Origin: Desulfobacterales bacterium
GTDB taxonomy: Bacteria; Desulfobacterota; Desulfobulbia; Desulfobulbales; VMSU01
NCBI GenBank assembly: GCA_011330685.1
Contig: DRPV01000118.1
Location: forward strand, 1-42,361
Direction of reading: 5' to 3'
Length of the DNA: 42,361 bases
Shown piece after piece: positions 3,742 through 33,770 of this stretch. How positions within the stretch are numbered: position 1 is the first letter of the stretch; the number at the start of each line of letters is the position of its first letter. The position numbers were made by a program, and so were the translations under genes. The notes below the pieces were generated by a model. It did no database searches. It was given only the letters and a program-made list of their open reading frames with translations, and was not told the DNA's origin.

Positions 3742-3753
3742 TTATCTTTAAGG

Positions 3754-3906
3754 GTAACTATTCAGCAAAGGCAACAGATTACCCGAAACTAGAAACCGTA
3801 ACCGTTCAGATGTGCTCCAGGTTTGTTCGTTTTGACCTCCGAGTCTGTACTCCCTGTACGTGAGGAGGGCAAAACGGACGAAGATGGAGTGCAGCTGAAT
3901 GGTTAC
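3754..3906 (+). repeat. Dispersed modular palindromic repeat, copy A (tail + core hairpin)
   Basis: gtaactattcagcaaaggcaacagattacccgaaactagaaacc followed by gtaaccgttcagatgtgctccagg...gatggagtgcagctgaatggttac; shared with copies B, C, E, F. Confidence 0.85.
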
Positions 3907-3922
3907 CTTTAAGGAGTGATAA

Positions 3923-4492
3923 ATGCAATGTCCTGGACAAGACAGTCGTTTTTGGGATGGGGCAGCGGTTTTTGAATATAAGTGCCCCAAATGCGGCCAT
4001 ATGCTGGAGTTCTTTAAGGATGACAGCAAGCGGCGCTGTAAGAATTGCGGCAATGAGGTCTTTAATCCCCGGATGGATTTTGGCTGCGCCGCCTACTGCC
4101 CTTACGCGGAACAATGTCTTGGTCAGCTGCCGCCGGAGCTTTTGGCCAAAAAGCAGGAAAAGCTCATTACCGATACCGGCGCTGAGCTGAAGAGGCGCCT
4201 GAAAGATGATTTTAAGGCCATTGGCCGGGCAGGGCGCGCGGCACGGCGGGCGGCTGAACTGGCGGCGGATAACGAGGGCAGTAATAAAGCGGTTATTGTT
4301 TTAAGTGTTTATTTTGTGATCTTGGCCGAGGCCGCGGGCGGCAATGCCGCTGAACTGAGTCAAAGTATTATGACCCACTTCGGGGCTAATGAAGGATTGA
4401 AAAATGAAATTCGTGCCCTCCTTGAACATCAGGGATCGGCCGGTGATGAAGATTTAAATTTACGCCTGGTGCGTCAGGCCCTGGTGCCGTAG
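3923..4492 (+). CDS. Hcp-associated zinc-ribbon protein of unknown function
   Basis: YKCPKCGHMLEFFKDDSKRRCKNCGNEVFNPRMDFGCAAYCPYAEQC, then a helical region; SD aaggag upstream; lies between hcp and a ferredoxin gene. Confidence 0.85.
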   Translation: MQCPGQDSRFWDGAAVFEYKCPKCGHMLEFFKDDSKRRCKNCGNEVFNPRMDFGCAAYCPYAEQCLGQLPPELLAKKQEKLITDTGAELKRRLKDDFKAIGRAGRAARRAAELAADNEGSNKAVIVLSVYFVILAEAAGGNAAELSQSIMTHFGANEGLKNEIRALLEHQGSAGDEDLNLRLVRQALVP

Positions 4493-14947: not shown

Positions 14948-17761
14948 ATGAAGGTCAGAGTTTATGAGTTGGCTAGAGAAGTTGGGATGGACAGCAAGTT
15001 GTTGGCGGTCAAGCTCAAGGACTTCGGGTATGATGTAACTACCCATAGTTCCAGCCTTGATGAAGCCACTGCCGCGGAAATCAGGAAACGTCTGTCGGCG
15101 ACTCATACCGAGGTTCAGGAGAAGAGGATTTTGACCAAGGGTCATAAAACCATTATCCGGCGGCGTACCAAGGCGGTTAAACCCCCTGTAGTGGATGAGA
15201 TTGAGCTTCCAGAGCCGCCGCCTCACATTGTTGAACCAGAGACGGAGATCAGCGAGGCCGCCCCTCCCAAGCCTGAGGCCAAAACAGATAAGGCTCCTCC
15301 GGAAGCGGAAGCTGTGGTTGAATTATCGGTGGAGCAGGTCGATAATGCAGAGCCTCCGGTTGCGGGTCTGAAGGTAGAGTCTCCTGCTGTTACGGCATCT
15401 GAGCAGTCTGAGGCTGTAACGGTATCGGAAACTGAAGCCGCGCCGGAGCCTGAAGTGGCGGTGGTGGAATCAGCAGAGCAGGGTGAGGCCGCGCCGCCGG
15501 AAGCTGTTAAGGCTGAGGAAGAGACAACTGCGGAGTCCAAAGCAAAGGAGATTACCCCGGTTCAGCATGTAGAAAAGCCGGAACCGGTAGCGGCCAGCCG
15601 CAAAGGATTAGCCAGGGTTATTAAGCGGGCGGCAATTAAACTGCCGGTTGAGGAAGAACGGCCGCGGCCGAAGAAGAACAAACCCAAGGGCGGCAAGACG
15701 ACGGCCCGGCCCCCTTACAGGAGTGCCTCCGGAGGAGGAGCCGCGCGGCCCTTTAATGGCGGCCCCGGTAATGACCATAATGCAGCGCCGGGCAAGGGAA
15801 AAAGAGGAAAACGGTTTGTGAAATTTCACCATGAGCCGGGTGCCAAGGCCAAGCGGGGCCGTAAGCAGGGTTACGGCGTTGTGGATATGGAAGATGTTGC
15901 CATGGCCGGTGGACGGTTGTCATCGGCTTTGAAGCTCGATCGTCAGCGTCGTGGCGCTAAAAAGATGGCCAGAGGCGGCGGCAGTGAGGCCGGAGAGGCC
16001 AAGGCCATTAAGCGGCGTATCCAGATTTATGATACCATTTCCATTGGTGATCTTGCTCACCGCATGGGAATCAAGGCCAATGAGTTGATTGTTAAATTAA
16101 TGGGGATGGGAGTTATGGCCACCGTTAATCAGATCATTGACCTTGATACCGCGGTTCTGGTGGCGGCTGAATTTGGTTATGATGTGGAACAGGCCATGAC
16201 CGAAGAGCTTAACATCCTCAATCTTGAGGATAACGAAGCCGGCGGCGAGATGCTGCCCCGGCCCCCGGTGGTCACCGTTATGGGGCATGTCGATCACGGT
16301 AAGACCTCTATCCTTGATGCCATTCGTAATTCAGATGTGGCGGCTGGTGAGGCCGGCGGTATAACTCAGCATATTGGAGCCCATTATGTCCGCTCCCCGC
16401 AGGGTGAGGTGGTTTTCTTAGATACCCCAGGCCATGCCGCGTTCACCGAGATGCGTTCCCGGGGGGCGCAGGTTACCGATATTGTTGTCCTGGTGGTGGC
16501 GGCCGATGACGGGGTGATGGATCAAACCAAGGAGGCCATTAATCATGCCAAGGCTGCTGAGGTGCCCATCGTGGTGGCCATCAACAAAATTGACAAGGAT
16601 GATGCCGATCCCATGCGGGTCAAAAGAGAACTGGCTGAATATGATCTGGTTCCGGAAGACTGGGGTGGGAACACTATTTTCTGTGAAGTTTCGGCTAAAC
16701 AAAATATTGGTATAAATGAACTCTTGGAGCAGATTTTACTCCAGTCCGAGATTCTGGAACTAAAGGCCGATCCAAAACGCCGGGCCCGCGGCCGGGTGGT
16801 TGAGGCCAAACTTCACAAGGGGCTGGGGGCCGTCGCCACCATTCTTATTCAGCAGGGAACCCTGCGGGATGGAGACGCCTTCGTGGTGGGCGAATTTTAT
16901 GGTAAAGTTCGTTCCATGTTTAATGATAAGGGCGAGACTGTGCCGGAGAGCGGCCCATCCATGCCGGTTGAGGTTCATGGTTTAAGCGGTGTACCCAGTG
17001 CCGGTGATGAGTTCATCGTGATGCCGGATGAAAAGACCGCCAAGAACATAAGCAGTCAGCGTCAGACCAAAAGCCGGGAAAAATATCTGGCTCAGGGTAG
17101 TAAAATCTCCCTTGAGAATCTCTTTGAAAAGCTTCAGGAAGGTGCCATGAAAGAGTTATGTGTCCTGTTGCGGGCCGACGTTCAGGGAACCTTGGAGGCC
17201 TTTGCCAAGACCTTGAAGAAATTGAGTACCAAAGAGATTAAGCTCAGTATCATTCATGAGGGTACCGGTACGATTACGGAATCTGATGTTCTGCTGGCTT
17301 CGGCCTCTGATGCCATTATCCTGGGTTTCAATGTGCGGCCCAATGCCAAGGTGCAGGAGATGGCCAAGAAAGAAAATGTCGACATCCGTTTTTATGATGT
17401 CATTTATCACGCGGTGGATGATATAACTAAGGCTATGACCGGCATGTTGGATCCCACCTTCGAAGAGAGGGTTATCGGGGCGCTTGAGGTTCGTCAGATC
17501 TTCAGTGTTCCCAAAATCGGGGTTATCGCCGGCTCTTATGTTACTGATGGCAAGATTACCCGTAATGCCAAGGTTCGTCTGCTGCGTGACGGGGTCGTGG
17601 TCTATACCGGCAATATATCTTCTCTCAGGCGTTTTAAAGATGATGCCAAGGAGGTTGCAAGCGGTTACGAATGCGGGGTAGGCATCGAGAACTATAATGA
17701 TATTAAAGTCGGCGATACCATGGAAGCCTTTGTTATGGATGAAGTTGAAGCCATCCTTTAG
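14948..17761 (+). CDS. infB: Translation initiation factor IF-2
   Basis: [48 protein letters not shown]. Confidence 0.98.
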
Positions 17762-17794
17762 TAAACGTTCCATGAACATCCTGTTGCACGCGAT

Positions 17795-17818
17795 ATACCT
17801 CCCAATATACGGAGGTAT
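17795..17818 (+). other. Perfect hairpin in the infB-rbfA gap
   Basis: ATACCTCC-CAATATAC-GGAGGTAT. Confidence 0.5.
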
Positions 17819-17849
17819 TATCGGGAGTTTTGGTCGTGGGCAACGGGCG

Positions 17850-17874
17850 TCCCTGAAACGCTTACACCTCGGCG
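17850..17874 (+). repeat. Short dispersed repeat R4
   Basis: ccctgaaacgcttacacctcggcgg between infB and rbfA. Confidence 0.5.
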
Positions 17875-17918
17875 GTTTGGTTATAATTATCGCTAACCTT
17901 TAAACAGTTGATTTTATA

Positions 17919-18326
17919 ATGGGTAGAAAGGATAAAAAGGTAAGTGATTATGCCATTGCAGACCTGGGCCGGAGGGTTAATCGGCGGCCGGGACGGGTGG
18001 CGGAGGTTATTCGAAACGAGTTGTCCATGCTTTTGCTGCGTGAGACGCGTGATCCCCGTTTGCGGGCGGTAACCCTGAGCCGGGTTGAAGTCAGTCCTGA
18101 TTTGCGGGCCGCGGTGATTTTTTTTAATTGTCAGAAAGACGAGGTTAAGGATGTCTTATCCGGCCTGACAAGTGCCCGTGGTTTTATGCGTAGTACGCTG
18201 GCTCAACGTATCAGCCTGCGTTACATGCCCAAACTGGTTTTTAAGCATGATCTTGCCGCTATGTATCAGGCCGAGATGGATCAGGTTTTCAGGGAGATTG
18301 CCAATGACCACCCACAAGATGAATGA
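17919..18326 (+). CDS. rbfA: Ribosome-binding factor A
   Basis: RVAEVIRNELSMLLLRETRDPRLRAVTLSRVEVSPDLRAAVIFF. Confidence 0.95.
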   Translation: MGRKDKKVSDYAIADLGRRVNRRPGRVAEVIRNELSMLLLRETRDPRLRAVTLSRVEVSPDLRAAVIFFNCQKDEVKDVLSGLTSARGFMRSTLAQRISLRYMPKLVFKHDLAAMYQAEMDQVFREIANDHPQDE

Positions 18327-23983: not shown

Positions 23984-24072
23984 TTACTTCTTCTAACGCC
24001 CATTTGAAAAAATATCAGTACCTGTTATTTTTAAAGATAAAAATGCCGGTAGATGCTATTATATCGTAAAAG

Positions 24073-24242
24073 GTATCTATTTAGCTAAGGCACCGAATTG
24101 CCCTAAACTGTGAGCTGTAACCGTTCAGATGTGCCCCAGGTTCGTTCGTTTTGACCTCCGAGTCTGTACTCCCTGTACGTGAGGAGGGCAGGTAAGCGTA
24201 GACTCCGAAACGGACGAAGATGGGGTGCAGCTGAATGGTTAC
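24073..24242 (+). repeat. Dispersed modular palindromic repeat, copy B1 (long form)
   Basis: gtaaccgttcagatgtgccccaggttcgttcgttttg...cgaaacggacgaagatggggtgcagctgaatggttac; same layout as copy A. Confidence 0.85.
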
Positions 24243-24254
24243 CGTAAAAGATTG

Positions 24255-24351
24255 GTAATTATTCCGCAAAGGCAACAAATTACCTGAAACTCGAAACCGT
24301 AATTGTTCAGGAAAGCGAAGACTCCGAGATGGAGTGCTGCTGAATGGTTAC
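24255..24351 (+). repeat. Dispersed modular palindromic repeat, copy B2 (short form)
   Basis: gtaattattccgcaaaggcaacaaattacctgaaactcgaaaccgtaattgttcaggaaagcgaagactccgagatggagtgctgctgaatggttac. Confidence 0.8.
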
Positions 24352-24372: not shown

Positions 24373-25851
24373 ATGTTAGGCGAAATTGATCGGCATATAT
24401 TAAACGATATTTTTGATGAATTAGATGATGCCATCTATATTGTTAACCCGGATGACAGCCGCATTCTGCATGTTAATCAGAAGGCCTGTAACATATTAGG
24501 TTATAGCTATGAGGAGTTGACTTCTCTGAGGGTAATTGATATCCAGACGAGCCTGTCTTCCATGGAAAAGTGGAAAAGGATGTTATTTAACCGTCTCAGC
24601 CCCGGCCAGACCTATGACTACATCGGTTCTCACCGTCGGAAGGATGGTACTTCCTTTCCCGTAGAAATTCATGGCAAATACTTTGTTTATAATGGTCGGC
24701 CCTGCCTGATTGGTATTGCCCGTGATATCAGTGCCTGGCGGCAAATTGAGAGCGAATTGCTTCAGGAACGTAATAAATTAGAGGCGGTACTATGCGCTCT
24801 TGGAGACGGTCTCACCATGCAGGACACTAATTTTCGAATTCTTTACCAGAATTCGGCCTTACAGAAGAAGCAGGGACGTCACATCGGGGAATATTGTTAT
24901 AAGGCCTATCATGGCCGCGACCAGGTCTGCGAAGGATGCCTGTTAGTTAAGGTCTTTCAGCATGGCGGCAGTTATCGCCGTGAGACCAGTGTTACCCTGG
25001 AAGACGGTTCTATCCTGTACATGGAGGTTTCGGCCAGTCCGGTACGTGATAGTGAGGATCGAATTATTGCCGGAATTGAAACGGTTCGCGATATTACCCG
25101 CAGCAAGGAGTTGGAGAGCCAGTTTCTGCAGGCCCAGAAGATGGAGGCGGTGGGGCGTCTTACCGGCGGTATAGCCCATGATTTTAATAATATTCTTACC
25201 ATTATTATGGGTTATAGCGAAATGACCATGACCATGGCCCAGGCGGGTACTCCTCTTTTTGAAAACCTCAAAGCCATTAATGAGGCCAGTAACAGGGCCT
25301 CTCTTCTTACTCGTCAGCTTTTGTCCTTCAGCCGTCAGCAGAGTTCTTCGACTAAAAATATAAATTTACTTGATTCTTTGCGGGATATGAGCAAAATGCT
25401 GCGGCAGATTCTGGGTAAAGATATTGATTTACAGCTTGAGTATCCGGACGTTGAGCCCATGATTGCCGTTGATGAAACTCATTTTACTCAAATTATGATG
25501 AATCTGGCTGTTAACGCTCGGGATGCCATGGCTGGCGGCGGTATTTTTACTATCAATGTTAAATGTCTGGAAATCGATGAAACTCAGGCGGAGGAAGAGA
25601 ATCTGACCTCGGGTAATTATGTCTGCTTAAAGGTGTCAGATACCGGTTGCGGTATCAGCCAGGATATAATGGATAAAATATTTGAACCCTTTTTTACCAC
25701 CAAGGCCGTTGGCCGTGGAACCGGCTTGGGGCTGTCTACGGTTTACGGATTAGTAAACAATTATAAGGGCCGAATAGTGGTGGATAGTGTACTGGGGCAC
25801 GGTACTACCTTTACTATTTTGTTATCGCAGGTAGATTTACATGGCGCCTGA
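24373..25851 (+). CDS. PAS-PAS sensor histidine kinase
   Basis: [48 protein letters not shown] (HisKA), FEPFFTTKAVGRGTGLGLSTVYGLV (HATPase). Confidence 0.92.
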   Translation: MLGEIDRHILNDIFDELDDAIYIVNPDDSRILHVNQKACNILGYSYEELTSLRVIDIQTSLSSMEKWKRMLFNRLSPGQTYDYIGSHRRKDGTSFPVEIHGKYFVYNGRPCLIGIARDISAWRQIESELLQERNKLEAVLCALGDGLTMQDTNFRILYQNSALQKKQGRHIGEYCYKAYHGRDQVCEGCLLVKVFQHGGSYRRETSVTLEDGSILYMEVSASPVRDSEDRIIAGIETVRDITRSKELESQFLQAQKMEAVGRLTGGIAHDFNNILTIIMGYSEMTMTMAQAGTPLFENLKAINEASNRASLLTRQLLSFSRQQSSSTKNINLLDSLRDMSKMLRQILGKDIDLQLEYPDVEPMIAVDETHFTQIMMNLAVNARDAMAGGGIFTINVKCLEIDETQAEEENLTSGNYVCLKVSDTGCGISQDIMDKIFEPFFTTKAVGRGTGLGLSTVYGLVNNYKGRIVVDSVLGHGTTFTILLSQVDLHGA

Positions 25852-25855
25852 AAGA

Positions 25856-27472
25856 TTAAAAATCCTCAAAGTCATCGTCATCGTCCATGGGGATAACCTG
25901 TTCCGGCGCGGCCGCCTTTTTGGGTTTTACCCGAGGGGCAGGTAATGGTTTGATCTCAGGAGATTTTTGGGGATTGAGAGGGGCTTTAACCGGTGGACGT
26001 TTGAGCTCATGCGACGAGTTGTTATCGTCAATTTCATTACTGCCGGTGAGCATGAGCATAAGCCGGTTGATATACTGCGTTGTAGTTCTGGCCAGGGAGA
26101 GAAGTTCGGCGGCGGCGCTGGCCGTCTCCTCTGCATTGGCCGCTGAACGCTGAGTTACCTGGTCTATCTCGTTAATTGCCGTATTTACCTGGCTCAAGCC
26201 TATGGTCTGCTCGCTGGAGGCGGTGGAAATTTCAGCTACCAGGCCGCCGGCCATGGATATTTTCTCGGCAACCGCTGAAAAATTCTCGTTGGTCTCCTCT
26301 GCCAGTTTATTACCTTCGCTGATTTTAGCTGTCGTCTCCTCAATAAGCTGAGTAGTATTTTTAGCCGCCTCGGCGGAACGCATGGCCAGACTGCGAACCT
26401 CATCTGCGACTACGGCAAATCCTGCCCCCGCCTCACCGGCTCTGGCCGCCTCAACGGCAGCGTTTAAGGCCAGGAGATTAGTCTGAAAGGCTATTTCATC
26501 AATTGTCTTGATTATTTTAGATGTTTCTTCACTGGCCGTGGAGATGGCGGCCATGGATTCGGTCTGGCGGATGATGGATTCATTGGCCTTGTTTACTACC
26601 TGGCTTACCTCCTTCATCAGGCTGTCGCATTGCCCGGCGTTATCAGAGTTCTGGCGGGTCATGGTGGCGATTTCCTCCATGGAGGCGGAGACCTCCTCAA
26701 GGGAAGCCGCCTGGGCAGAGGAATCATCGGCCAGGGATTGGCTGGAACCGCTTAATTCTCCGGAGGCATCAGAAACTCTGACTGTGGTTTCGGTTAATTC
26801 ATGGCCGATGGTGGTTATCGGTTTGATTACCAGACGCTGGAGGCAAAAATAAATGGTCAGGCAGAGCAGGACAATAAATCCCAGAGCCAGGCCGATGAAC
26901 CATATGGTCAATTGGCGGGTAGAGGCAGCCATGGTCTTGATTATATCAGCCTTTTCGGAGGTGATGTTGTTGTTTAAAATTTTATTTGTTTGATTAATTC
27001 TGGCCATGCTCATTCGTATTATCACATGGCCGACAAGTTTCCCTTCAAATTTTATCGGTTGTTTGACCTCCTTCATGCCGGGATGTATGGGCCAGGCCTT
27101 GGTCAGGGGTTTATTGTTCTGGTCGGTGAAAAAGGCATTGGCCACGTCTTTGTCCATGGCTGCGTGCTTCGCTAATTGCTGCAGGGAATCAAAATCATAA
27201 CCAATGATAAAAGTGGAGCCGATTTTGCCAAGCAGCATGGCAAAGGATCTGCCCTTGGCTATTATGTCTTTTTGGGCCAATTTTTCCTGCGTATCACGGT
27301 CGTGCCCCAGAATTTTGACAAACCCCGTGCCAAGATGTTTTTCTGAATTGCGGGCCGAATTAATGATAACCATGGTCATGAGGCTTAATAAAATAATGGC
27401 CAGAGTTGAAGAAATAAGTACAAATTTAAAGGTGATGCCTTTCTGTCTATCCGCCATCTTGTTTTTCCTCAT
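25856..27472 (-). CDS. Methyl-accepting chemotaxis protein with C-terminal DFEDF
   Basis: [51 protein letters not shown] hairpin tip; two TM segments. Confidence 0.95.
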
Positions 27473-27480
27473 AGGTTAAA

Positions 27481-27569
27481 GTAACCGTTCACCTGCGCCC
27501 CATCTCGGAGTCTGCGCTTACCTGAATGGTTACAGTTTACGAGTTGAGGGTAATTTGTTCAATAGTTAC
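27481..27569 (-). repeat. Dispersed modular palindromic repeat, copy C (short form)
   Basis: gtaaccgttcacctgcgccccatctcggagtctgcgcttacctgaatggttacagtttacgagttgagggtaatttgttcaatagttac; reverse complement aligns with B2. Confidence 0.8.
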
Positions 27570-28779: not shown

Positions 28780-28808
28780 GTAAGTGTTCAGCTGCACCCC
28801 AGCTCCGG
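28780..28808 (-). repeat. Truncated repeat arm, copy D
   Basis: gtaagtgttcagctgcaccccagctccgg matches the GTAACCATTCAGCTGCACCCC arm. Confidence 0.55.
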
Positions 28809-28872: not shown

Positions 28873-29448
28873 ATGAAAAATATGAAAAATGTTAAAAAAA
28901 TAATGGCCTTGGTGCTGTTTCTCTGCCTGCTGCCCTGGCCGGGGGCAGTTGTGGCCCGTAGTGAGCCGCCTGCTCACAGTCTTAAGGAGCTGGAGGCGGA
29001 CTATCTCTATAATCTACTTCTCTTTATACATTGGCCCGGCCAGCAGAGAGAACGCTTGACTATCTGTGTTCTTGATGCTGAAGGTATGGGTGCCTTTTTG
29101 ATGCCGGAGGCCAATAAGCCGATCAAAGGCAGTTCCCAGAGTATGGGAATAAAATTTCTCACTTCTAATTTCAAATCACGGGACTTAAAATTCTGTTCCC
29201 TTCTTTTTATCAGCAAAAAAGATGGGCCTTATATGAAGCGAATTCTGGATAAAACCAAGGGACTGCCATTGTTGACTGTTTCCGATCTTCCCGGATTCGT
29301 GGAGCGTGGGGGGATGATTGGTCTTGTTATCAGGCATGGCCGTTTGCGCTGGCAGATTAACCAGACTGCGGCTCGGGAGGCCGGACTGAGCTTCGCCGCC
29401 CAGATTTTGCGTAATGCCGACATGATCGTTGGCCGGGAGGGCAAATAA
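28873..29448 (+). CDS. YfiR-family (DUF4154) periplasmic protein
   Basis: Signal peptide; LEADYLYNLLLFIHWP, LTICVLDAEGMG, PLLTVSDLPGFVERGGMIGLVIRHGRLRWQINQTAAREAGLSFAAQILRNADMIV. ORF track start (28747) lies across repeat copy D; start trimmed. Confidence 0.88.
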   Translation: MKNMKNVKKIMALVLFLCLLPWPGAVVARSEPPAHSLKELEADYLYNLLLFIHWPGQQRERLTICVLDAEGMGAFLMPEANKPIKGSSQSMGIKFLTSNFKSRDLKFCSLLFISKKDGPYMKRILDKTKGLPLLTVSDLPGFVERGGMIGLVIRHGRLRWQINQTAAREAGLSFAAQILRNADMIVGREGK

Positions 29449-29449
29449 A

Positions 29450-31651
29450 ATGCGGCGGCCTGTCTTTCGATCTATTAAAAGTAAATTGTTTTTTATCATT
29501 GCCGGAACTGCCAGCGGCGCTGTTCTTGCCGTGGCCTTTTTGTGTTATTGGCAGATTTGCTCCATTTACCGGCAGGCATATCGGGCCGATCTTTTAAATC
29601 AGGCCGCTATTGTCGGAGCCAATAGTCAGGCCGCTCTGTCCTTTGGTATTCCGGAAGACGCGCGGGATATTCTTGCCACCCTGGGGCATCGGCCATCCAT
29701 AATCGGGGCCGCTATTTTTGACAATTACGGCAAACGACTGGCCGCCTTTGGCGCCTTAAAACAGACTTCATTGCTGCGGGGCGATTTTCTAAAGGTGAGG
29801 TATGATATTAATCGGCTGGGCAAGGCCCTGGGGCATATAGAGCTTTGGGATAATATGCGCCCCATCGCGATATTTAAGACTCGGGCAATCATCTCTCTTG
29901 CCCTGGTATCAGTATTGCTGATAACGATATGCGTACTTATTGCCGGTAAACTTTGCCAGGTTATCACTCGGCCCGCTATGGAACTAACCGCCCTCACCAC
30001 CCGGATTGCCGCTGATGGAGATTATGACCTTCGGGCCGTGGTTGGTGCTGATGATGAGATAGGCCTGCTGGCTCGTTCGTTTAACACCATGCTGGATACC
30101 ATTGCCGCACGCAGCGAGCGTCTGCGGACAAGTGAACGGCGATTCCGCCTTCTGGTTGAGCAGGGGGTCGACGCCTTCTTCCTCCATGATATGAAAGGGC
30201 GTTTTGTCGATGTTAATCAGCAGGCCTGTCTTAGTCTTGGTTACAGCAGGGAAGAGTTGTTGAATATGACGGTGGCTGATGTGGAGGCCGATCCAGCCAG
30301 CCGTCAGGCTGGTGAAAAAATTTGGGACAGGCCTGATCCTGGTCAGCCGTTAATGGTTGAAGGCCGGCATAGACGTCGAGACGGCAGTACCTTTCCGGTG
30401 GAGGTGCGCCTGGGGGTTTTTGAAGACAGTGGGCGCCATTATATTATGGGGCTGGCCCGTGATATAAGCGAGAGGATGAATGCCCTTAAAGATAAGCATA
30501 CCTTGGAGCTTCAGATACAGCAGGCCCAGAAAATGGAGGCTATTGGTACCCTGGCCGGCGGCATTGCCCATGACTTTAATAATATCCTAACTGCCATAAT
30601 GGGATATTGTGAACTGGCCATCCTTGAGGTTGAAAAAAATACCCCTCTGTATGGTCATTTGCAACAGGTCAAGCAGGCCGGTAAGCGGGCTATCGGTTTG
30701 ATACGCCAGATTCTGACCTTTAGCCGGAAGAATTACCAAGAGGTCAGCCCCCTGCAGATTTCGTTAATTGTCAAGGAGGCCTTGAAATTATTGCGGGCCT
30801 CAATCCCCACTACCATTGATATCAGGCAGGATATTCAGACCGAGGCCATGGTACTGGCTGATCCGACCCAGATTCATCAGGTGATGATGAATATCTGCAC
30901 CAATGCTTATTATGCCATGGCCGACAGCGGTGGTACGCTTACGATATCCTTAAAGGAGGTTGATTATGACCGGCCAGTTAATGATGCCGGTGAGGAGGTA
31001 CCGCCCGGTCGTTATGTGGTGCTGACCATAACTGATACCGGCCCCGGTATGAGCAGGGAAACTCGAAAGCGTATTTTTGAGCCCTATTTTACAACTAAGG
31101 AGAAGGGCAAAGGCACCGGACTGGGGCTGGCCGTGGTGCATGGTATTATCGAGTCCTGTCATGGCCGGATCGGGGTTTATAGTGAACCTGGACACGGTAC
31201 TACCTTTAATATATATTTACCGGCTCTTAACGGTGATCCTGAACAGCTGCTGGTGGAAAAGAATGACGAAAGTGAATTACACGCCCGACAGGCGGAAAGG
31301 GTGGTCTTTGTGGATGATGAGGAGGCTATTCGTGATCTCGCGGTGCAGTTTCTGACCCAGGCCGGTTACAGAGTCACGACCTTTACAAATGGTCTTGAGG
31401 CCTGGGAGGCAATGAGGACTGATATTACGGCCTGGGATCTCCTTATTACCGATTTGACCATGCCGGAGATGGTTGGCAGTCAACTCGCCTCTCTGGTTAA
31501 GACAATGCGAAACGATTTACCGGTTATTATATGTTCCGGCAATAACGCAGAGGTAAACGGTAGTCATAATAAAGGAATTATATATGCCCATAAGCCTCTG
31601 AGCCGGCGAAAATTTCTGGCTCTAACGGCCCAGGCCCTTAGAAAATCGTAA
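29450..31651 (+). CDS. Hybrid sensor kinase: CHASE8-like sensor, HAMP, PAS, HisKA, HATPase, REC
   Basis: [35 protein letters not shown] (CHASE8-like); [36 protein letters not shown]...[14 protein letters not shown]. Confidence 0.92.
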
Positions 31652-31862
31652 CCGTCCACCTGCACCCCATCTTCGTCCGTTTCGGCCCCCTCACGTACAA
31701 CGGGTCGGAGTCTACGCTTCGCTCCGCTTACCTGCTTCGGAGGCCGAAACGAACGAGGTAAGCGAAGACTCCGAGCTGGGGCACATCCGGAGTCTTCGCT
31801 TTCCTGAACGGTTACAGTTTATACGAGTTGAGGGTAATTTGTTGCCTCTGGTGAACGGTTAC
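31648..31862 (-). repeat. Dispersed modular palindromic repeat, copy E (expanded)
   Basis: gtaaccgtccacctgcaccccatcttcgtccgtttcggcc...cctgaacggttacagtttatacgagttgagggtaatttgttgcctctggtgaacggttac. Confidence 0.85.
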
Positions 31863-32182: not shown

Positions 32183-32368
32183 TCAGGCCTTGTGTTCTGG
32201 TTCGTTGTCTTCTATCTTTTCGGGTTTATCGTCCTTCTTGCTGGCATCTTTGAAGTTTTTGATTCCCTTACCGATTCCGGAGCCGATCTCTGGTAGCTTA
32301 CCGGCTCCAAATATTATGACTATAATGACCAGGATTACTAATAATTCCGGCATGCCGAGTCCAAACAT
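32183..32368 (-). CDS. tatA: Second TatA/E-family twin-arginine translocase subunit
   Basis: [43 protein letters not shown] track start (32497) reads into repeat copy F, trimmed to ATG at 32368. Confidence 0.92.
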
Positions 32369-32401
32369 AACGCTTATCTCCTGGTTACGTACCGTTTTTA
32401 T

Positions 32402-32554
32402 GTAACCGTCCAAATGCACCCCATCTTCGTCCGTTTCGCCCCCCTCACGTACAGCGGGTACGCTTCGGAGGCCGAAACGAACGAACCTGGGGCACATTTG
32501 AACGGTTACAGTTTACGAGTTGAGGGTAATTTGTTGCCTCTGCTAAACGGTTAC
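32402..32554 (-). repeat. Dispersed modular palindromic repeat, copy F (long form)
   Basis: gtaaccgtccaaatgcaccccatcttcgtccgtttcg...cgaaacgaacgaacctggggcacatttgaacggttac + agtttacgagttgagggtaatttgttgcctctgctaaacggttac. Confidence 0.87.
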
Positions 32555-32717
32555 GTTTTTATTATTGATTAGCCCTTTACCCACTAATCCGTTTATGCAA
32601 TAATAGCCACAATTATCATTTTAGGCAATATTAAACTCATAGAAATAAAATCAGTATGGCAGTTTTATTTAGTTTTGCGCCCATAGGCTCAAAGTTACTA
32701 AATTCAGGTAAAAAATA

Positions 32718-33770
32718 ATGAATATAAATGACTGGCTTCCTGTCTTCACTCAGCATGATATTATAATTAAGAGATTTATTATCCTGGCCTGTTACGCCTT
32801 ATTGGCCAAGGCCGTTGATATCTTTATTAACCGGGTCTTAGGACGGCTGGTTAGATTGTCAAAGATGGAATTTGACGATGAGATTTTAGGGATTATCCAC
32901 AGCCCGATTTATTGGACGGTATTCTGTCTTGGTATTCTGCACGCTGGTTCCATTGCCCCCCTGCCGCCGCCCTGGGAGATAGTGCTGCCTGGTGCCGCTA
33001 AATCTGTCATTGTGGTTATCTGGTCGGTTACCGCCCTGAAAATTATTCAGCTTACCCTGCGCCAGAAAACGCTGGAGACCTTGCTGCGCCGCCGGATTCC
33101 AGCCACCGCCTTTAATATTATCACCAAAATATTGCGGATTTTTCTTATTATTCTCGCGATAGCCTGGCTTCTCGGGGTCTGGCAGGTGGATCTTACCCCG
33201 TTCTTTGCCTCGGCTGGAATCGCGGGTATAGCCGTGGCTATGGCTGCCAAGGACTCTCTCGCTAATTTTTTCGGGGGGTTAAGTATATTCATGGACAATA
33301 TATTCAAGGAGGGAGACTATATCGTTCTTGATAGCGGTGAGCGGGGTGAGGTGATGGAGGTCGGTATGCGCTCAACCCGCATCAAGACCCGTGACGATAT
33401 TCTGATTACTATTCCTAATTCCATTTTAGCCAATACCAAAGTCATTAATGAGAGCGCCCCTATCCCCAGATTCAGAATAAAAATTCCGGTGGGAGTGGCC
33501 TATGGCAGCAACCCGGAGGTAGTGGGAGAACTTTTGCTGGGGGTGGCCGCCAGAAGTTCATTGGTGAGTAAGGCACCTGGCGTTGAATCGCGGGTACGTT
33601 TCAGGTCAATGGGGCCGTCCTCTCTTGATTTTGAACTGCTCTGCTGGGTGGATGATCCCCGTGACAAGGGCAAGGCGGCTCATAAACTTCTGACTGCCAT
33701 TTACCAGGCTTTGACTGAGGCCGGAATCAGTATTCCTTTTCCCCAAATGGATGTGCATATCATAAACTGA
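32718..33770 (+). CDS. MscS-family mechanosensitive channel
   Basis: FASAGIAGIAVAMAAKDSLANFFGGLSIFMDNIFKEGDYIVLDSGERGEVMEVGMRSTRIKTRDDILITIPNS. Confidence 0.94.
   Translation: MNINDWLPVFTQHDIIIKRFIILACYALLAKAVDIFINRVLGRLVRLSKMEFDDEILGIIHSPIYWTVFCLGILHAGSIAPLPPPWEIVLPGAAKSVIVVIWSVTALKIIQLTLRQKTLETLLRRRIPATAFNIITKILRIFLIILAIAWLLGVWQVDLTPFFASAGIAGIAVAMAAKDSLANFFGGLSIFMDNIFKEGDYIVLDSGERGEVMEVGMRSTRIKTRDDILITIPNSILANTKVINESAPIPRFRIKIPVGVAYGSNPEVVGELLLGVAARSSLVSKAPGVESRVRFRSMGPSSLDFELLCWVDDPRDKGKAAHKLLTAIYQALTEAGISIPFPQMDVHIIN

Follow-up and report, generated by a model that had tools for sequence, protein, structure and literature searches.

Among described repeats, NEMIS/Correia, ERIC and BOX/RUP elements resemble those analysed here in being small, non-autonomous, palindromic and mostly intergenic, and transcripts of ERIC and Correia are cut by RNases (PMC2229807, PMC10969869). 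They differ from the present repeats in their ends and duplication length, and the latter are set apart by one-strand pairing via G-U in two families and by core lengths that change in 17-bp steps. REP/BIME repeats with RAYT likewise form many intergenic hairpins, whereas the repeats here have 8-bp duplications and IS66-type ends. How IS66 elements transpose is little known. They are characterised by 8-bp direct repeats and GTAAGCG-type ends (PMC11946415). IS66-family elements (PF03050; ISBst12-like, tnpABC-type) share with the repeats described here the GTAA ends, about 12–16 terminal bases (GTAACTGTTCAG, GTAACTATTCAGC) and 8-bp duplications; the repeats differ in their size (42–215 bp), in lacking a transposase gene of their own, in having a core built as a long palindrome, and in an additional internal end.

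The stretch analysed (the window) comprises 42,361 nucleotides of a Desulfobacterales draft genome and holds several copies of such a repeat. Judged from sequence comparison, these repeats are most probably (roughly 0.87) IS66-derived MITEs, present in more than 100 copies, whose one-strand hairpin would be kept within the element's own cycle and not for control of leaders. The IS66 derivation is argued from the match of the ends and the 8-bp duplication to IS66 elements of the same order.

Repeat copies in the window and empty sites in congeners

Copy F is a 153-bp insertion (32402–32554) with an exact 8-bp duplication, GTTTTTAT, on both sides (32394..32401 and 32555..32562, no strand assigned). 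On the + strand its palindromic core (32402..32509) begins with the left arm and is followed by a 45-bp tail (32510..32554) that ends in the inverted terminus TAAACGGTTAC, the hairpin-rich strand being the − strand. At the corresponding site the congener G003 reads CTGGTTATGTACTGTTTTTATTGTTGATC, with one GTTTTTAT and no element, and the congener G002 is likewise empty with a single GTTTTTAT. About 100 bp from its empty F site, G002 carries a distinct element of this type (L191 ~1830–1945, G002:C116) with the duplication GAAATAAA.

Exact 8-bp duplications also flank copy A (3754..3906, − strand; tail 3754–3797, core 3798–3906; CTTTAAGG at 3746–3753 and 3907–3914) and copy B1 (24073..24242, − strand; diverged tail and 126-bp core; CGTAAAAG at 24065–24072 and 24243–24250). 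Copy D (31648..31862, + strand; 168-bp core and tail) is flanked on both sides by gene 3' ends and has the duplications AGAAAATC/AGAAAACC, which match at 7/8 positions. No duplication is left around copies B2 (24255..24351, − strand; tail and 53-bp short core) and C (27481..27569, + strand; 53-bp short core and diverged tail), and a degenerate remnant of one element end occupies 28780..28807 (+ strand). A second MITE family, here family X, is represented by one copy (17761..17911, − strand). The duplications around F, A, B1 and D and the empty sites of the congeners had been overlooked in the earlier reading of this DNA.

Copy D is missing at the orthologous site of G003, and G002 has no element at the C or B sites. 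At site A, G003 has a core-only element about 4 bp away with a different octamer (7/8). A 36-bp remnant occupies that same place in G002, and we read the two as an insertion that arose independently and later underwent internal deletion. The first bases of copy D, GTAA, supply the TAA stop codon of a hybrid histidine kinase ORF (29429–31651), the frame of which is about nine codons longer in G003, where copy D is lacking.

Genome-wide copies and their probable relationship to IS66

The own assembly (G000) is a fragmented draft of 330 contigs, 95.5% complete; less than half of it was examined base by base and the remainder by pattern and family scans. Defined by their ends, 127 main-family copies (126 distinct) were recovered from about 1.23 Mb, and the distinct copies carry the terminal inverted repeats GTAACCGTTCA..TGAACGGTTAC (element ends GTAAC..TGTTCAG; inverted ends GTAAC..GTTAC). 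Exact 8-bp duplications flank 42 of the 62 full-length copies (core plus tail) in this 1.23 Mb, or by arm type 23/34 R-type and 19/28 N-type copies with a tail, while flanks compared at other lengths (5–7 and 9–11 bp) gave one exact match, at 9 bp. A scan of 2.89 Mb for the core-end pattern returned 176 matches as against 0 for the reversed-pattern control. The repeat also occurs in named contigs of a Desulfobulbaceae MAG and of Bacterium BMS3Bbin14, the latter with three copies bearing exact duplications.

Short forms that lack the hairpin (42, 53, 63 and 70 bp) have target duplications too, and the hairpin may therefore not be strictly needed for insertion, unless these forms are later internal deletions. 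Some tail-only copies of 42–50 bp (L067, L083, L097, L122) show exact 8-bp duplications, although they are tiny as transposon-like insertions go. In the main family the core length changes in 17-bp steps (108/109, 125/126, 142/143 and 160 bp), owing to repetition of a module resembling GGTAAGCGAAGACTCCG, of which 136 occurrences lie within or close to elements and two outside them.

In G006, a genome of the same family, a 2414-bp IS66 element (L202, G006:C185, 1240–3653; PF03050 transposase, E 2.4e-41) has GTAACTGTTCAGGTCA at both ends and is flanked on both sides by ATTTTATT. Elsewhere in the order, IS66-family elements that combine ends of this type with 8-bp duplications occur in G031, G132, G114 and G053; PF03050 elements of the order showing both traits include those with GTAACTATCCAGC (1729 bp), GTAACTACTCAGCC (1608 and 1595 bp) and GTAACCGTCAAATGAACCCCATCT (2499 bp). 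The identity of the repeats to known IS66 elements is confined to about 12–16 terminal nucleotides, and to the outer 12 or so for the G006 element. No PF03050 gene was found in the own draft genome, a search for paired ends with 8-bp duplications gave no convincing full-length autonomous copy in 1.23 Mb of it, and no complete IS66 element with long arms was found. The repeats would have been moved in trans by an IS66-type DDE transposase whose source, since it was not found in the draft assembly, may have been lost, may be unassembled or may lie elsewhere. In the G006 element an ORF with a DruA domain (PF14236) adjoins the transposase; DruA-type genes were considered as a partner and rejected, being present in G006, G003 and G002 and absent from G000.

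Orientation relative to neighbouring genes

The first-pass annotation had placed the repeats just 5' of start codons in a single orientation. The copies are present where it put them, and its spacings are correct: 16 nt lie between the end of copy A (3906) and the ATG at 3923, 21 nt between the end of B2 (24351) and the ATG at 24373, 8 nt between the start of C (27481) and the MCP start at 27472, and 33 nt between the start of F (32402) and that of a tatA-like gene at 32368 (32183..32368, − strand; TatA_B_E, E 3.8e-19). At these four places the element does run tail, then core, toward the gene. As a general rule the single orientation fails, both within the window, where D sits between gene 3' ends and the family X copy points its tail toward a gene start at 17919, and across the genome. 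In tandem gene pairs, as delimited by the approximate calls of a simple codon-usage gene caller, the core end of the main family points to a gene start in 33 copies and to a gene end in 28 (p 0.61), or 29 vs 28 without the window copies. When gene starts up to 100 nt away are counted, the core side has 35 and the tail side 31. Orientation in the main family is thus random genome-wide, and because it is so nearly even, one shared orientation at four places in the window is not unusual. Proximity to start codons may instead reflect insertions that survived in short intergenic gaps.

Family X (the own genome holds about 35 copies; GTAAGCGATCAATTAACCACACC tail, core of about 107 bp, total of about 153 bp, 8-bp duplications) typically has its core end at or near the upstream stop codon and its tail toward the next gene start. 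In tandem pairs the core end faces the upstream gene end in 25 cases and the gene start in 4, or in 3 once a mis-scored end is discounted. Its orientation is therefore opposite, so that the hairpin-rich strand is the antisense strand there. With the main family random and family X reversed, the strand asymmetry is decoupled from the sense of host mRNA: the tail-to-core strand has the sense of the downstream gene in no more than about half of the main-family copies, and is usually antisense in family X.

One-strand pairing of the hairpin and its possible causes

Folded as RNA, copy F reaches −79.0 kcal/mol on the − strand vs −54.6 on the + strand, the two strands of B1 and A give −66.5/−50.2 and −63.7/−42.2 kcal/mol, and all 45 cores of 107–109 bp fold more stably on the tail-to-core strand (mean −69.9 vs −50.7 kcal/mol). 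With few exceptions, the tail-first strand also gives the better fold in elements found de novo in G001, G004 and BMS3Bbin14. Stem pairing amounts to 98.5% on the tail-to-core strand vs 87.2% on the other in 43 aligned main-family cores, and to 96.4% vs 78.4% in family X, percentages that are not independent, as copies within a family are related and the independent events number about 13–15. Stem covariation, which the first-pass annotation had proposed looking for, is present: nine pairs of the main family are changed on both sides, a number that none of the 500 shuffles and none of the slid versions reached, and compensatory changes in family X are likewise above all 500 shuffles and the slid controls. 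Covariation alone could arise through selection at the level of the element, or also if one arm served as a DNA template for the other.

The arm differences of copy F are indeed transitions, giving A-C mismatches on one strand and G-U pairs on the other. Among widespread arm differences the G-U direction prevails by 7:0 and 8:0 in the two families, a one-sidedness of 15:0 (p 6e-5) or 13:0 (p 2.4e-4), and the case for a one-strand selection step draws on these roughly 15 ancestral differences, of which two may be common to both families, and on related copies. Rare arm changes show no significant strand bias, either as counted here (7:4 and 19:17, together 26:21) or as 28:21 in the formal test; an earlier count of private changes, 18 vs 17, is superseded, having mixed in copies whose right arm was shifted by a 17-bp insert. 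A one-strand C-to-T mutation bias as the cause of the G-U pairs is disfavoured. Such a simple bias is unlikely because the rare changes are nearly balanced, and the family X tail is C-rich on that same strand. Selection among propagating copies is suggested as the simplest reading of the asymmetry, which would then be a family-level property of the element and not of host leaders.

The proposal of the first-pass annotation, an RNA hairpin in 5' leaders under selection for control over translation or mRNA stability in the downstream genes, draws on the four window copies that read tail, core and gene, on the stable fold of that strand and on the compensatory pair changes. Its hint of selection on a hairpin survives in these changes and in the one-strand pairing. 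Its leader control is not supported, given the random orientation across the genome, which that annotation had itself named among the outcomes that would refute it, the usually opposite orientation of family X, and 8-bp duplications and empty sites that mark dispersed mobile insertions. The element is not conserved at orthologous leaders, with F missing in both G003 and G002 and C missing in G002; a search of Rfam gave no match, which also counts against a leader RNA. A search for sigma-70 promoters found none inside copy F, the three promoter-like sites in 32340–32740 all lying outside the element. We regard leader control as highly improbable; effects on the mRNA of particular genes may occur, and would be incidental. 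For this lineage, replacing the regulatory reading by a mobile-element one means that such repeats should be masked before riboregulators are searched for.

Even for MITEs, the arms might be kept alike by DNA templating (quasi-palindrome correction), with the G-U direction due to chance or to end-specific transposase binding. Compensatory double changes would follow directly from templating, and insertion sequences often have a left end unlike the right one. Templating predicts no strand preference, yet about 15/15 widespread arm differences run in one direction in two families, and we consider this explanation unlikely, though worth keeping in view. REP/BIME-type repeats moved on single-stranded DNA by a RAYT (Y1) transposase would recall the one-strand hairpin, and two full-length Y1_Tnp genes are encoded in the own genome. 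The constant 8-bp duplications and the IS66-type ends speak against such an origin, and Y1 chemistry is not known to make 8-bp duplications; we find such an origin barely credible.

Under the preferred reading as IS66-derived MITEs, selection would have favoured, among copies able to propagate, those whose tail-to-core strand still folds in single-stranded form, be it RNA or ssDNA, and resident copies would decay without a clear strand preference. A broader and more doubtful idea is that IS66-type MITEs cannot propagate unless one of their strands folds into a single-stranded hairpin, of RNA or ssDNA. It draws on the arms of the two families, which differ almost exclusively by changes that preserve G-U/G-T pairs on the tail-to-core strand, whatever the orientation of host genes. 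If true, this would mean that mobilisation by a DDE system supposed to act on double strands includes a single-stranded step specific to one strand. Should one-strand pairing be confirmed in more families, it would suggest that IS66 MITEs pass through a single-stranded or RNA stage, and would give a testable handle on the IS66 family. On its core-to-tail strand, the family X tail contains AGGGGGTTATATGAAGTTGGGTGTGGTTAATTGA, a Shine-Dalgarno-like stretch and a 7-codon ORF, and it might relieve polarity.
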